DNA from: Terebella lapidaria
Lineage: Eukaryota > Annelida > Polychaeta > Terebellida > Terebellidae
NCBI GenBank assembly: GCA_949152475.1
Contig: OX424568.1
Span: 11,693,667 to 11,757,666, forward strand
Direction of reading: 5' to 3'
DNA: 64,000 bases
The stretch's first letter is position 1, and the number at the start of each line of letters is the position of its first letter. The notes below the pieces were generated by a model. That model saw only the letters and a list, made by a program, of their open reading frames with translations, was not told the origin of the DNA and did not search any database. A program made the translations under genes and the position numbers. This document shows, one piece after another, positions 8,690 through 46,177 of the stretch.

Positions 8690-9058
8690 AATGGACTCCA
8701 CGAAGGCAGCCCTCTTCGCAGCTGTTGACAGAGAGGAAGCAGAGGCTGATCCAGATAGCGCTTGATGAATACAAGCATGGTCAGCTCTCTGTGCCGAGCT
8801 CAGATCCTACGATCCCTCACAGTCCAGGGATAACCTCGGCCAGTTCTCTGTCCGGCCCCCGGTCCCCTCGCATCCGTACGTGCAGGTGGCCCAGCACTCT
8901 GGCCACACCTCCGCCGAGGCTCGGAGGAACCATCCAGTAGTGGATCCTGAGGTCAGCTTGACGGGTCTCCCGGCTCCAGCAGGCACACTAGGATCTGGCT
9001 GGCAACCCATGGATCTGGCCCCCGAGTTATGCTAGCTGCTCTTCTCTGTCCACTCCCT
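8690..9058 (+). repeat. Direct repeat unit, copy 1
   Basis: This segment is repeated at about 10240-11030. Shared landmarks are CTGTTGACAGAGAGGAAGCA, TACAAGCATGGTCAGC, GTGGATCCTGAGGTCAGCTT and CTCCAGCAGGCACAC. A frame in it reads LLTERKQRLIQIALDEYKHG, also present in copy 2, so it may derive from a coding sequence of unknown kind. It ends where the foldback element at 9064 begins. Confidence 0.7.
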
Positions 9059-9063
9059 ATTCA

Positions 9064-10221
9064 CACAGGGAGGAAATGTTTGTCTGATTCTATGTGCATT
9101 TGTCTGATTCTATGGGCAAAAAGTCTGATTCTATGAGCAAATTGTCTGATTCTATGGAAAAATAAGCAAGTAAGCAGTAGGGCACCAGTAAAACATGCTG
9201 GATCTACGACAAATTTCTCAACTCAATCTGATGGCATATGTTCTATTTACTCCATAAATCATTGCAGAATATGGATTATGTTCAGTTTCTTATGCAGTGT
9301 TCACCGTTGTTCATACATTTGTCGTACAACTGGAACGGCCAGGCGATGGAGCAGTTATCCATGGGTATCTGGACAAAATTAGTCCAGTTGACATTCTGAT
9401 TGTTCCTGGACGTGAAATCAGCTACCTAATCAAACAAAATTGATCATAGATTAAAAATAAAAGAAACAAACCTAATTCTATAGGAACAAACCTGATTCTA
9501 TGGGTAGGTTTGTTTGATGACCATGGAACTATGGGCTAAGATCTGTCATCCATGCTATTGACCTTCTCCTAGAAACAGAACATAAAATCAAGCTTCAGTA
9601 ATATATTTATTCAGGATCAGCATCGAGAAGCTCTTAGTTCCATGGCTATAACAACAACCTACCCAAAGAATCAGGTTTGTTCCCATAGAATCAGGTTTGT
9701 TCTGTTATTTTTTATTCTATGATCAATTTTGTTTGATTAGGTAACTGATTTCACGTCCAGGAACAATCAGAATGTCAACTGGACTAATCAATTTTGTTGG
9801 ATTACATAGCTGACTCCACGTCCAGGAACAATCAAAATATTAACTGGAATAATTGTGATGCAATTGGGGTTAAGATATCGTGGTAAGTAGCTGGCAGCGC
9901 TATGCCTTTGGTGATTTATGATGGCTAACTGCTCCACTGCCTAGCCGTTCCAGTTTTGTGTGACAGATACATGAAAAGCGGTGAACACCAAATAAGAAAC
10001 TGAACATAAATCATATTCTGCAATGATTCAAGAAGTAAACAGAACATATGCCATCAGATTGTGTTGAGAAATTAGCCATCGATCCAGCATGTTTTACTGG
10101 TCCCCCACCACTTACTTGCTTATTTGCCCATAGAATCAGACAATTTGCTCATAGAATCAGACTTTTTGCCCATAGAATCAGACAAATGCACATAGAATCA
10201 GACAAACGGTTCCTCCCTGTG
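9064..10221. mobile_element. Foldback element with long terminal inverted repeats and 5-bp target duplication
   Basis: The ends are CACAGGGAGG (9064-9073) and CCTCCCTGTG (10212-10221). ATTCA lies on both sides (9059-9063 and 10222-10226), as expected of a 5-bp target duplication. Each arm starts with several copies of TCTGATTCTATG, followed by GCACCAGTAAAACATGCTGG on the left and its mirror on the right. Inner parts (CAAACCTGATTCTATGGG, GATCAATTTTGTTTGATTAG) also mirror around about 9590. No transposase frame is seen. The element separates the two direct-repeat units at 8690 and 10240. Confidence 0.85.
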
Positions 10222-10239: not shown

Positions 10240-11030
10240 ATAGCCTCCTTCAAAGCTGTTGACTGAGAGGAAGCAGAGACTGATCCAAATAGTGCTTGAT
10301 GTATATGTTATAGGTTTCGGAAAAATCCACTTGCCCGAGAGGGGATCCGAACCCAGGACCCGACGAACAGAAATCCAACACTCAACCAAGTGAGCTAAAG
10401 GGATATCCCACTAGCTGAGCTAGTAGGAATGTTGACTACCAAATTGGGTGAACCCCGAATGGGCCCTGGCATATATTCCCCCCTCTTCGGAAATCTCGTC
10501 CCCGAGATTTGGGCAAGTCCCACATTGGGCACCAATGTTACAGGGTTCGGAAAAATCCACTTGCCCGAGACGGGATTCGAACCCAGGACCCGACGAACAG
10601 TAGTCCAATACTCTACCAAGTGAGCTAAAGGGATATCCCACTAGCCGAGCTAGTAGGAATGTGACTACCAAATTGGGCGAACCCTGAATGGGCCCTGGCA
10701 TATATACAAGCATGGTCAGCCCTCTGTACCGAGCTTGGATCCGTCGATCCCTTACAGTCCAAGGTGACCTCGGCCAGTCCTCTGGGCCGGCCCCCGGTCC
10801 CCTCAACTCAGTACGTGCAGGCGGCCCAGCACTCGGGGCCCGCACCTATGCCAGGCTTGGGGGAACCACGCAGGCAACGGTATATCTGCTGTTCCAGTGG
10901 TGGATCCCGAGGTCAGCTTGACGGATCTCCCTGCTCCAGCAGGCACACCAGGATTTGACTGGCAACCCGTGGCTCCAGCCCCGAGTTATGCCGGCTACTC
11001 TCCTCTGTCCACCCTCTATTTGAGTGGCAG
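10240..11030 (+). repeat. Direct repeat unit, copy 2, split by a miniature LTR element
   Basis: This is the second copy of the unit at 8690-9058. It is colinear from AGCTGTTGACTGAGAGGAAG to CTCTGTCCACCCTCTATT. It is interrupted after GTGCTTGATG by the element at 10306-10702 and resumes at ACAAGCATGGTCAGCC. Copy 1 has no insertion and so shows the empty site. The downstream part holds extra sequence (about 10860-10900) missing from copy 1. Confidence 0.7.
10306..10702 (-). mobile_element. Miniature LTR-type element (TRIM-like) with tRNA-like boxes in its repeats
   Basis: Two direct repeats of about 165 bp (10306-10471 and 10536-10700), roughly 92% alike by eye, flank 64 bp. On the minus strand each repeat runs TGCCAGGG...TAACA, that is TG...CA. 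The centre then starts TTGGTGCCCAATGTGGGAC, like a lysine-tRNA primer-binding site, and ends in a purine run AGAGGGGGGAA just before the second repeat. TATA lies on both sides, and the uninterrupted copy of the host repeat near 8770 supports a 4-bp duplication. Each repeat carries TAGCTCACTTGG (A-box-like) and, in one copy, a perfect B box GGTTCGAATCC. It has no coding room. The alternative is a tandem pair of tRNA-derived SINEs. Confidence 0.65.
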
Positions 11031-43400: not shown

Positions 43401-45941
43401 AGGAGTAGTGATGGTTTCTTCACACATTTCTATACAGTATTGTCTACTAGTATGCCTTCCTATCACAAACTCTACCTGTAGACACCCCTCCCCCCTCTAA
43501 AAAGATAGCTCTATTCTACTCCTGCACTAATACCTTACAAATACATTTACAATCCTCAAGTAAATAAGGGTATTGTACCTGTACCTGTAACTTTCCCACA
43601 CACATAATGCATGCCGTCTAATACACGTAGCTCAAAGTAGTGATTACAGTCCTGGAAGAATAGGCAAGTTGCCAACTTGCCATCATATACACTCCTGTAG
43701 TACTATCCACTTGCAAGCCTCAATATATGAAGACTAAACTGCAGGCAAATTCATTACGGCATTTCCAAGGATTATTATATGTGACGTCAATTTTTGTAAT
43801 AAAGTTTATGCTTCATGTACACTAATACCCGTTGAATGACAGTTTACCAGGCACATTTTCACTTTCACCTGAGAACAAATTTGTATGCAATAAGCGCATC
43901 ATAATATTATGTCAACATCATGTAAACATGAGTGCTTGAACTGCACCAATCAGTGAAATCAAATCACTAGCTCACCACACATGCATGTACATCAGAACAT
44001 CATCGACACAAATTGGGTTCATTTCTGTGACCTTGACTTCACTTGGATATAGTGAAAGGAACAATACAACATAAAAATTGCTTCGAACAATTCAACACTT
44101 GTAACACAACACAATAGGATTTAAGAATCTCACCTCTCATCTTCCGTATCTTTCTGTGGGTAGTGCATCGTCTGTACCATCTCAAGTAGCGGCTGCGTCA
44201 GGCCAACCTGCATCATCAGCGGCTTCATCATCGGCACATCATCCCGCACGTGAAGTTGCTGAGACAAGTTCCGCTCACTCTCCTCAACCGAAACCGTTGA
44301 CTGCTGGTCATCGGGCACAATGTACATTCCGTCCGTAGGAGCCGTTGACTGAAACTCCGAACCCTGGACGTTGCCATCACTGGGGCTGGCATTGTTACTC
44401 TGACCGGAATTCGGGTTGAAGTCCGTCACGTTTGCCTTGCCTGTTGTAGGCTGCACTGAAGACGCGGCAACGTCTCCAAGCGATGACTCAGCCTGATTCT
44501 TCGATCCTTGACCACCATTGTTAAATTCAGGGCCTGGAGCGGTTTTCTGGGATGTTGTCTGATTGGGGGCCGTTTGCTTCTGTTGCTGCTGTTGTTGTTG
44601 TTGTTGTGGAATCGTTTGAGTAGTTGGCTGGGTGGCTTGCTGTGTTTGGCCCAAGAAGTCCTGATGAGACGATCCTGGATAGTCCTGCAGCTTTGTGGTG
44701 CTGGTGCTCGTCGTGACTCCAGAGGTGGTCGATGTTGGTGCAGCATACGTTACTGGGGGCTGCTGTGAATGTTGCTGTGACGGTAATGACTGCGAGGCTT
44801 GTTGTGACGGCTGAACAATCGAGCTTGACAATTCATGAGCACCTGTTTTCTCAACGCTGACTGCTGGATTGCTAGCCATCGACTGAGCAGTGTAATCTCC
44901 ATTCTGAAGTTGCGACTGGTTGACTGACTGTGTTTCTGGTATTGAAGGAGTAGCTTCCCCAGGAACAAGTGATGCCAGAGGATTTTTGCTTGGGTCGTCC
45001 ACTCCGGGCACGTAATGCACAGAACTGGCAGCACTTGAGTTTCCAGAGCCCAAGTCTTCGTTCGATTTCTCTCGTTGCGTCCTCTCTGAGTCCTGGTAAT
45101 CAACACAAGTCCATCGACCTCGAAGGAATCTCTCATTTGAAACTTTAACAATCCTGAACCTATTTTCACCAAAATTAGGATCTGTATTTTCGTCCTTGAT
45201 ATTGGAAAGTGTCCGCGGCACATCAGCGCCTGAGGACTTGGAATATTGTGGAGTTTCTTCTTTGGTCTGTGGCAAGGAAGCAGTTAGGTGTTTGCCTTCA
45301 TGTTTTAAGTCTTCAACAACAAGGCTCTGAACTGTGTCTTCAGAGGAAGGATCTTGATCGATATCAGTCATTTTAGATGTGTCCATAATCTCAGAGCTCA
45401 AATCCTCAGTGTTTGTCTCGTCAAAATCATCACCGATACTATCCGCATCTTCTGCGTGATCAACAGTGTCCATTTCCAACTGTTTACGATTGATAACGCG
45501 CGTGATCTGGAACGAGCCTTTCTTGGGCTTCTGGGAGTTGGCGTGTATCATTTGTGAAGCAGTCGGAGCAACTGGGGTGCTTACATCCAAAAACAAACTA
45601 TCAGATGCTTTTCGCTTGTTTGTTGCTCCATGTCTCGCATCTTGGGGTTGGGGTTGGGAACCTTCCCCAGATGACTGTGAAGTGGGACCCATTTTCACAG
45701 ATCCGCTGCCAGTTCCAGACGAAGGCACGCCCCCACTTTCTGTGGATTCCCCGTCGGCGTCGGAGGCCATCGACACGTTAACGTTTGTGGCGCCCGATTT
45801 TCCGTCCATTTTATGATTGTATTCCATGGAACTTACAGCCATGTTTGGTAGGAAATATCCCGATCCATGATGTTTTTGATCAGCACCTGCTGTAGCCTTT
45901 GTCCTAAATCTAGAACTGACGGTAACAGCGACCATATCCAT
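19484..45941 (-). CDS. TSC22D: TSC22 domain family protein, long isoform (bunched-type)
   Basis: The exons are 45941-44134, 20380-20335 and 19681-19484: 2052 bp, 683 residues. The large exon ends in AG and the next begins with T, restoring the SGAS codon found in this family. Family landmarks: [12 protein letters not shown] and [17 protein letters not shown] (about 139-188, conserved motif 1), [19 protein letters not shown] (about 261-279, motif 2), a polyQ run (about 446-454), [11 protein letters not shown], then the TSC box and leucine zipper ([20 protein letters not shown] onward, about 622-665). The zipper dimerises. Long isoforms in flies and mammals bind Madm/NRBP1 through the N-terminal motifs and promote growth or volume control. 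Translation could instead begin at 45842 (AACATGG context), giving 650 residues. The middle is Ser/Gln-rich and disordered. Confidence 0.93.
20028..20174. mobile_element. MITE-like hairpin in the last TSC22D intron
   Basis: TTTGTGTAATGAGACGTTAT on the left is mirrored by ATAACGTCCCATTACACAAA on the right, and the pairing continues inward through ATTCCTAG and CCACCTAGTGAGTA. The arms are about 65 bp around about 17 bp. Each arm holds a CTAGGTGGCAG-like word close to the CTCF core. No coding sequence. The superfamily is unclear. Confidence 0.8.
21041..21075. repeat. (TATGA)n microsatellite
   Basis: TATGA is repeated about seven times without interruption. It lies in a TSC22D intron. Confidence 0.95.
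21901..22355 (-). CDS. TSC22D alternative first exon (22.4 kb), cysteine-rich
   Basis: ATG at 22355 opens a frame of 151 codons plus AG before GTATAT. AG plus T gives Ser, so it joins as YKH-SGAS in the same way as the long exon; the protein would be 232 residues. The N-terminal part is rich in cysteine (for example [21 protein letters not shown]). The last part, [16 protein letters not shown], looks helical, somewhat like the short N-termini of vertebrate TSC22D1/D3. The donor is weaker than at 26.4 and 29.1 kb. Confidence 0.55.
22356..26269. other. TSC22D intronic or promoter sequence between alternative first exons
   Basis: No additional gene is recognised. Long G-runs (about 24063-24166, several tracts of 7 to 15 G) could form quadruplexes. 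An open minus-strand frame at 24849-25334 has no domain and poor composition. The segment just above 22355 should hold the promoter of the 22.4-kb first exon. Confidence 0.45.
26270..26370 (-). CDS. TSC22D alternative first exon (26.4 kb)
   Basis: ATG at 26370 lies in a strong context (AAACATGG). The frame [20 protein letters not shown]...VIMASL ends in GG before the donor GTGAGTGAG. GG plus T of the next exon gives Gly, so the frame continues into [15 protein letters not shown] and the zipper: 114 residues in all, the size of the short TSC22D1/GILZ-type isoforms. A CTCF-like motif lies about 26 bp upstream of the ATG. Support comes from context, donor and phase; no transcript was seen. Confidence 0.6.
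26371..28760. other. TSC22D intronic sequence with a pogo-like terminal repeat
   Basis: No exon is recognised. TACAGTGGTCGCCCTCGGAT (28327-28346), then AAGAC and later AGTCTTATTAGAGG, resembles the CAGTGG... terminal repeats of pogo/Tigger-type DNA transposons. Only one end is clear, so it is probably a fragment. Confidence 0.4.
28761..29125 (-). CDS. TSC22D alternative first exon (29.1 kb)
   Basis: An open frame from ATG at 29125 ([15 protein letters not shown]) ends in AT followed by the strong donor GTGAGT. The two leftover bases join the T of the shared exon at 20380 to give Ile-Gly-Ala-Ser, keeping frame into the TSC22 domain and giving a 202-residue protein. The N-terminus is Pro/Thr-rich, with a hydrophobic end ([13 protein letters not shown]). 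I do not recognise it from other TSC22D proteins. There is an in-frame stop upstream, so it reads as a first exon. No transcript was seen; the phase match is the main support. Confidence 0.6.
29126..37231. other. Large TSC22D intron, no additional gene seen
   Basis: Open frames here (for example 33315-33653, 34460-34885) lack domains and conserved composition. CTCF-like words TCACCAGGTGGCAG (34056-34069) and TTCACCAGGTGGAGCC (34110-34125) stand 54 bp apart. A run of 21 C lies at 35570-35590. A short MITE lies at 36561-36763. The rest is AT-rich. Confidence 0.45.
36561..36763. mobile_element. Short MITE with CTGTAAACCC inverted ends
   Basis: CTGTAAACCC at 36561-36570 is mirrored by GGGTTTACAG at 36754-36763, and inner words GTTCG and CGAAC also mirror. 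On the right the flank is TA. At about 203 bp with no coding sequence it fits a Tc1/mariner-type MITE, but the left TA is not present. Confidence 0.55.
37395..37860. repeat. Tandem repeat of about 120-130 bp
   Basis: AAATTGGAGCCAGATC recurs at intervals of 119-130 bp (block starts at 37507, 37637 and 37756, with a more diverged copy near 37412). Each is followed by CTTTTCAC and a TTCATAATATGTGCCAAAC-like stretch. Confidence 0.75.
37862..38290. repeat. Tandem repeat with 132-bp period
   Basis: ATGTTAAC recurs at 37877, 38009, 38141 and 38273, exactly 132 bp apart, within well-conserved units containing TCTCTACTGGACAAAAC and TCAATAATAAATGTTTCT. There are about three and a quarter copies. Confidence 0.9.
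39817..39853. repeat. Perfect 18-bp palindrome with 1-nt spacer
   Basis: CAGAAATACATAAGAGAG is followed by A and then its exact reverse complement. It lies 64 bp before the hAT-like element. It may be a small insertion relic or a hairpin-forming regulatory site. Confidence 0.85.
39917..40589. mobile_element. Non-autonomous hAT-like element with 8-bp target duplication
   Basis: The ends are TAGGGCTAAAAAGATTA and, inverted on the right, TAGGGCTAAAACGATTA. The sequence CAAGTTAT lies on both sides (39909-39916 and 40590-40597), an 8-bp target duplication typical of hAT transposons; TAGGGCT...CGATTA ends are also common in that superfamily. At 673 bp, with no transposase frame, it is non-autonomous. 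It lies in the large TSC22D intron. Confidence 0.9.
40598..44133. other. TSC22D intron 1, proximal part
   Basis: No gene recognised. A short (CCGTA)n run lies at about 41680-41700. The sequence is AT-rich, with scattered CATGTACATG words. It ends at the splice donor of the long exon (AG|GTGAGA at 44134/44133). Confidence 0.45.
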
Positions 45942-46177
45942 GACATGGTGATGAGTGCATGACGAACTTCGTCAAACTTGTCCAGGAAGCCCGCTGGCTT
46001 CGGACGCAATTTACTCCTCAACAGGCGTATTCCGTGATTAACTGGCTATCGGGAATAAATTCATCGTTAGTTATAAGTCAATTAGTGTACGATTTAGGGA
46101 CGAATCCCCAAATATACACCGATAAAACGCTGAAAACAAGCTACTGACTTGTTGTAATCTTCCACTCCCGTCTGTCA

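Follow-up and report, generated by a model that had tools for sequence, protein, structure and literature searches.

Structure of the element and its insertion site

The window analysed, a 64,000-nucleotide stretch of the Terebella lapidaria genome, contains a non-autonomous element of 397 bp with the order LTR, primer-binding site (PBS), interior, polypurine tract (PPT) and LTR (Table 1). A sequence-only reading had proposed a miniature LTR-type element at 10306..10702; the alignment with other genomic copies confirmed this anatomy and added that its sense strand is the minus strand. The repeats had been described as 165 bp each around 64 bp; two LTRs with a short spacer were indeed found, and the sizes were refined to 167, 62 and 168 bp. 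Within the window, the direct repeats agree at 93% (10305-10432/10535-10662) and 95% (10433-10476/10662-10705). The TG...CA termini assigned to the repeats did not hold for the LTR starts of the window element, both of which read TATGCC, but most other copies start with TGTGCC, and the TG was therefore mutated to TA in the window copy.

The internal signals that had been read from the sequence were all recovered, the purine tract among them. The lysine-type site is complementary to the 3' end of the host tRNA-Lys(CUU), CCA included, with one mismatch in the window copy (TGGT for TGGC). Boxes A and B, predicted at tRNA-like spacing in each repeat, are separated by 44 bases from start to start, and TATA occurs on both sides of the element as anticipated. 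The uninterrupted copy noticed near 8770 was confirmed as an empty site: the joined flanks of the element aligned with this paralogous stretch over 116 columns with zero gaps and AATA stands where the element has TATA, so that the empty site is correct within one base.

Table 1. Features of the element and of its insertion site (positions in the window)
Feature	Position	Strand	Basis
Non-autonomous LTR element, 397 bp	10306-10702	-	Alignment with other genomic copies
Target-site duplication TATA, left copy	10302-10305	.	Exact 4-bp duplications in 29/36 related elements
Target-site duplication TATA, right copy	10703-10706	.
5' LTR, 167 bp	10536-10702	-	Direct repeats and copy alignment
3' LTR, 168 bp	10306-10473	-	Direct repeats and copy alignment
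Interior, 62 bp	10474-10535	-	Copy alignment
PPT, AGAGGGGGGAATA	10474-10486	-
Inverted repeat AAATCTCGGGGACGAGATTT, possible hairpin	10491-10510	-	Spotted by eye
PBS, TGGTGCCCAATGTGGG	10519-10534	-	Pairs with the tRNA-Lys(CUU) 3' end including CCA
Box A, 5' LTR, TAGCTCACTTGG	10616-10627	-
Box A, 3' LTR, TAGCTCACTTGG	10386-10397	-
Box B, 5' LTR, GGTTCGAATCC	10573-10583	-
Box B, 3' LTR, GGTTCGGATCC, one change	10343-10353	-
T5 run 3' of the tRNA-like stretch, 5' LTR	10551-10555	-
T5 run 3' of the tRNA-like stretch, 3' LTR, possible Pol III terminator	10321-10325	-	T>=4 in 71/83 LTRs
GGGATATCCC, inferred RNA start region	10630-10639	-	Junction sequences of L107/L142 (compared with L144) and of L135
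Empty site, paralogous stretch without the element	8714-8829	+	AATA at 8768-8771

Next to the element (about 9080-10215), an extended inverted repeat containing many CATAGAATCAG-type units was noticed by eye; a copy of the flanking sequence stands on either side of it, and it is fold-back-element-like in appearance. Elsewhere in the window, the minus strand of 44130-45971 holds an open frame of 613 aa, which we take to resemble animal TSC22-domain proteins and for which a Pfam search returned no family.

Genomic copies and relation to known elements

The host genome (761.6 Mb, 438 contigs) was searched for further copies and at least 48 element matches were obtained, the best 40 of 682 first-look candidates having been scored. 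The copy set consisted of 39 fetched stretches and the window copy, and most of these 40 loci showed an LTR-interior-LTR organization with identical ends, a few carrying additional LTR pieces. Among 36 elements with near-complete outer LTRs, target-site duplications (TSDs) of 4 bp were exact in 29, matched at 3/4 positions in three and were unmatched in four, against a chance rate of 3.9% for an exact duplication (all cross-pairings, true pairs counted in). Shared flanks in L011, L012 and L017, and in L039 and L040, indicate that the copies are not all independent. The two LTRs of one element diverged by 0 to 10.9% (median 1.2%, 40 loci; 6.7% in the window copy), a distribution in which old copies are under-represented because the loci fetched were the best-scoring candidates. 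A 54-nt LTR pattern gave 120 genome matches at <=3 mismatches and its reversed control none. The copies are dispersed and partly young.

The search suggested by the sequence-only reading, for solo repeats and for repeat-spacer-repeat units with target duplications, returned both kinds with exact TSDs; the solo LTRs, judged by eye, were L050, L054, L055, L060 and L068 among 20 singleton places fetched. That reading had also named the pattern expected of a tandem tRNA-SINE array, namely variable head-to-tail numbers without constant ends. Such an array, or a segmental repeat in place of an LTR element, would be in keeping with the two interiors and at least three LTR pieces seen in L027, L028, L031 and L046, but these LTR-int-LTR-int-LTR forms keep the same LTR ends and, together with the 4-bp TSDs, the PBS and PPT in place and the solo LTRs with TSDs, this makes the array extremely improbable. 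The element is an LTR-PBS-interior-PPT-LTR unit with a 4-bp TSD, a tRNA-like stretch in both LTRs and dispersed copies. In L056, L061 and L064 the LTR is truncated from the 5' direction, close to where the tRNA-like stretch starts (LTR positions ~69-83), and its U5 end is intact; these are perhaps inserted R-U5 pieces.

Class membership was then evaluated on these features. tRNA-derived SINEs are single units without LTR, PBS and PPT, and retrozymes carry a hammerhead ribozyme in the LTR. Both assignments were rejected: the element has the order LTR-PBS-PPT-LTR with TSDs outside, and no ribozyme match was found by Rfam in the window element or in five other LTR loci. Like the element, Cassandra is a terminal-repeat retrotransposon in miniature (TRIM) whose LTRs contain the promoter sequence of a small RNA, but this is 5S rRNA rather than tRNA and the hosts are plants, as described in PMC10886601; no 5S rRNA match occurred in the same six loci (Rfam). 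The biv-TRIM elements of bivalves (PMC6934838) are likewise animal TRIMs with solo and tandem forms; however, their terminal repeats of 202-218 bp surround an inner domain of 77-80 bp without clear PBS, and their PPT is GGGGAGA in most copies according to the accessible text, against LTRs of 167-168 bp and the PPT AGAGGGGGGAATA here, and membership was rejected. PbTRIM of the harvester ant (PMC3532108) is an animal TRIM with a 4-bp AT-rich TSD and similar LTR length, but it measures 480-781 bp and has a leucine PBS, and the accessible text does not mention a tRNA-like LTR.

The closest correspondence was with Helenus, a group of TRIMs whose LTRs include tRNA-derived stretches and which was described from fungi, a single plant species and six animal phyla (Kojima 2024, PMC10886601). 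According to the accessible text of that paper, Helenus elements have two LTRs flanking a PBS and a PPT within less than 1000 bp (range given, 311-1263) and, in animals, 4-bp TSDs and Gypsy-like PBS regions; their Pol III transcription is expected and unproven, and an animal helper was inferred from the likeness of the PBS region. The window element is 397 bp long with PBS and PPT between two LTRs, has TAGCTCACTTGG and GGTTCGAATCC in a stretch scoring 60 against tRNA-Lys, exact 4-bp TSDs in 29/36 of its relatives and a PBS complementary to the 3' end of tRNA-Lys(CUU) with CCA. Boxes A and B in both LTRs, the tRNA 3'-end PBS, the PPT, the TSD length and the solo LTRs are thus common to both, as are the Lys primer (used by Helenus in bivalves, wasps and fishes), tandem arrays (in one Helenus family) and the Gypsy-like PBS region. 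The host differs, since Annelida is absent from the list in the accessible text of PMC10886601. The window element is probably a new member of Helenus, defined by its features and not by a Repbase family sequence, and carries Helenus to a further host and probably to a new phylum. The resemblance in idea to Cassandra, raised from the sequence alone, had already been drawn by Kojima (2024) in naming Helenus as its tRNA version, and the kind is therefore not new.

The putative tRNA-like promoter and the predicted RNA start

The LTR was aligned with the host tRNA-Lys(CUU), as the sequence-only reading had recommended, and reached a score of 60, compared with 19.2 +/- 3.5 (maximum 37) for 2000 shuffles and 20 for the opposite strand. 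Lys was the best tRNA match of the LTR (48/66 positions), followed by Cys, in a comparison set of 77 distinct tRNA-like sequences with 11 labels from which most isotypes are absent. With the Rfam tRNA model, the LTR went unreported both in the window element and in five other LTR loci, the latter giving sub-threshold matches only (tmRNA, 9.7 bits, in two; snoRNA, 26.9 bits), and it matched the full tRNA copy in L117 with 66.6 bits. Judged by its sequence, the stretch is promoter-like and not a tRNA. Box A was present as a pattern in 58/83 LTRs, box B in 69/83 and a run of T>=4 in 71/83. When conservation was ranked among 156 LTR windows, box B came 33rd and box A and the T-run 117th and 140th; as these two do not stand above other LTR windows, box A conservation was dropped as a proof of function.

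A tRNA-type Pol III start is expected ~12 nt upstream of box A, and the first strand transfer normally takes place at the RNA 5' end. In a chimeric element on contig C9, described below, the LTR junction lies within GGGATAT, and L135 shows a fold-back at GGGATATCCC. From these two loci we infer an RNA 5' end ~12 nt upstream of box A, near GGGATATCCC, and Pol III transcription of the element is predicted from the sequence together with these two cDNA junctions. It might instead be transcribed by Pol II, the tRNA-like stretch being a non-functional remnant of a SINE that inserted into the LTR long ago. This agrees with the missing Rfam tRNA match and with the ordinary conservation of box A and the T-run; on the other hand, the boxes stand at tRNA spacing in both LTRs and recur in most LTRs at the frequencies given above, the RNA start indicated by two junctions is 12 nt ahead of box A, and the LTR of the C9 element retains only ~8 bp before that point. 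Transcription by Pol II with such a remnant in the LTR is regarded as unlikely. The T-run of the 5' LTR would be expected to halt Pol III, a point against the promoter reading, and a transcript made by Pol III would have to read through it.

In L042, the LTR switches to sense tRNA-Lys at GGTAGAG inside the tRNA-like stretch, a further sign of switching between both. The genome contains 209 matches to tRNA-Lys(CUU) at <=3 mismatches, and nearly all of the ~100 matches listed fall in a cluster at C4:27.54-27.61 Mb.

Primer-tRNA junctions and Gypsy chimeras

In four of the 20 singletons (L053, L058, L059, L065) the PBS forms part of a longer antisense tRNA-Lys sequence that includes CCA, with three mismatches in L058 and none in the others; in ordinary TRIM copies the tRNA sequence ends after ~16 nt. 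A 37-nt pattern spanning the LTR end and the tRNA matched 36 genome places (control, 0), and all 36 were read. With four further loci added and one duplicate merged, 39 loci were obtained in which an LTR is followed by a longer antisense copy of tRNA-Lys(CUU), 29 with this LTR and 10 with other LTRs. The 39 end points leave out L116 (L115 flanks), L131 (17 nt), L134 (positions 4-20 only), L135 (16 nt) and L042, L043 and L062 (19 nt, then ordinary interior); L111, with two readings (27 and 32), was set to 27 by eye. Eight copies ended at tRNA position 32, 18 in all at 31-39 and 12 at 21-27, the remainder singly at 1, 4, 17, 44, 48, 52, 55, 56 and 57. Under uniform ends over 57 positions, eight at one position gives p ~2e-5 and 18 in 31-39 gives p ~8e-6, the intervals 31-39 and 21-27 having been picked post hoc, after data inspection. 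The end points cluster at the anticodon loop and the D arm, and the 31-39 peak would fit both a stop of plus-strand read-through and cleavage in the anticodon loop.

At the far side of the tRNA copy, a second LTR piece with exact TSDs was found in L103 (CACA) and L113 (TGTA); the corresponding TSDs match at 3/4 positions in L101, L118 and L109 and are unmatched in L120. A TSD at the tRNA junction itself occurred in 0/13 loci (4-mers taken by hand), a test that says little about other loci because L100, within the 13, has its far end 6 kb off. The tRNA copy is internal to a TRIM in L102, L109, L110, L019 and L022 and leads back into the TRIM interior, at GGGA in L110 and CCC in L102. The copies in the full TRIMs L109, L110 and L102 make some inheritance possible, as if a long PBS region had been inherited and later trimmed by deletions; recombination between LTR and tRNA gene was weighed with it. 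Both are regarded as unlikely, as the end points vary by locus, what follows them is unrelated sequence, pol, gag or an LTR piece, the junctions occur across several LTR families, and the tRNA copy is joined through its 3' end including CCA, which does not directly follow the host tRNA-Lys gene in L130. LTR::tRNA-Lys junctions of other lysine-primed LTR families were observed in L126-L128 and L139-L141, in L114 and L121, in L124 and in L136.

Gypsy gag or pol sequence was detected by tblastn downstream of the tRNA copy, on the same strand, in 10/41 loci, a lower bound because 11/41 loci are only ~0.4 kb long; the search gave 0/9 for ordinary LTR loci of ~3 kb. The tRNA copy is followed by pol in L107, L112, L121, L123, L128, L136 and L140 and by gag in L100, L126 and L127 (L128 has an opposite-strand gag match as well). 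Helenus LTRs are present in L100, L107, L112 and L123, and the remaining six have LTRs of other families. A likeness to a Gypsy 3' end was also seen at the end of the TRIM interior (38 bp, 79%).

Two of these loci belong to bounded chimeras. The C9 chimera (C9:25110744-25114301, 3.6 kb; L107, L142) is flanked by exact ATAG duplications. In it, a shortened LTR is followed by a PBS whose tRNA copy reaches position 23, an open pol frame coding for RT, RNase H and integrase, a PPT and a second copy of the shortened LTR. A pol stretch on C11 is 99% identical to the C9 pol and is followed by an LTR starting TGTGATGGGGATATTCATT (L144); an upstream frame at this C11 locus matches PNMA (29.8 bits, cut-off 25). 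The C9 LTR starts TGTGATGGGGATAT and continues as Helenus LTR, which places a template switch within GGGATAT. The C1 chimera (C1:41436721-41442911, 6.2 kb) has TATG on both outer sides, a full Helenus LTR, a tRNA copy to position 35, gag-like frames (L100) and a Helenus LTR 6 kb on. The chimeras point to a probable Gypsy helper and to an RNA start near GGGATATCCC. An LTR pair 3.1 kb apart on C5, considered as a third chimera, was rejected as a duplicated stretch with the same flanks.

We therefore read the element, with a probability of about 0.8, as a Helenus-type TRIM whose RNA is made from a tRNA-like Pol III promoter, primed by tRNA-Lys(CUU) and served by Gypsy proteins in trans. Its RNA would start near GGGATATCCC, 12 nt ahead of box A, from the promoter in the 5' LTR, pass the T-run of that LTR and terminate at the corresponding T-run of the 3' LTR. 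Reverse transcription would be primed by the host tRNA-Lys(CUU), and a Gypsy element that encodes a PNMA-like gag together with RT, RNase H and integrase may supply the proteins. Plus-strand copying of the primer tRNA would occasionally continue past the usual stop, and the strand transfer, then misdirected, would yield the LTR::tRNA junctions and the TRIM/Gypsy chimeras.

More broadly, we lean towards the view that aberrant reverse transcription has left a chromosomal record in the lysine-primed LTR elements of this host, in which over-copying of the tRNA to the anticodon loop, D arm or 5' end and a subsequent template switch give inherited tRNA copies and full-size Gypsy elements with Helenus LTRs and their tRNA-like promoter. 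The strong-stop model is an old proposal for the origin of tRNA-derived SINEs; such a record, if true, would be its present-day counterpart and a working route for tRNA sequence into retroelements. One genome presents here the putative RNA start, the primer tRNA, the extent of primer copying and the co-copied larger element. According to the accessible text of a review (PMC13191261), plus-strand synthesis in HIV-1 usually halts ahead of m1A58, with minor products that extend to t6A37 or, when the tRNA is unmodified, as far as its 5' end; products beyond m1A58 are common to both systems, but the copies described here are chromosomal junctions with their top peak at position 32.

Titles and abstract openings on integrated strong-stop DNA and primer-tRNA copies, among which subscription papers are thinly covered, contained no report of chromosomal LTR::primer-tRNA junctions. 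The accessible text of PMC10886601 mentions neither such junctions nor chimeras with Gypsy gag or pol, and both go beyond the Helenus kind as published there. Kojima (2024) deemed long LTR stretches common to TRIMp3 and its helper unlikely; here, both the C1 and the C9 chimera are of full size and carry Helenus LTR sequence.

The mitochondrial contig of the assembly, read with the invertebrate code, has the order nad3-nad2-cox1-cox2-(short frame without Pfam match)-cox3, which corresponds to the annelid ground pattern. A plant origin of the DNA, considered at first, was rejected on this mitochondrial code and on the TSC22-like open frame of the window. On a further contig of 61 kb (C417), COX1 occurs a second time, in split form and with in-frame TGA, alongside two high-scoring tRNAs; this contig is perhaps another organelle genome within the assembly.
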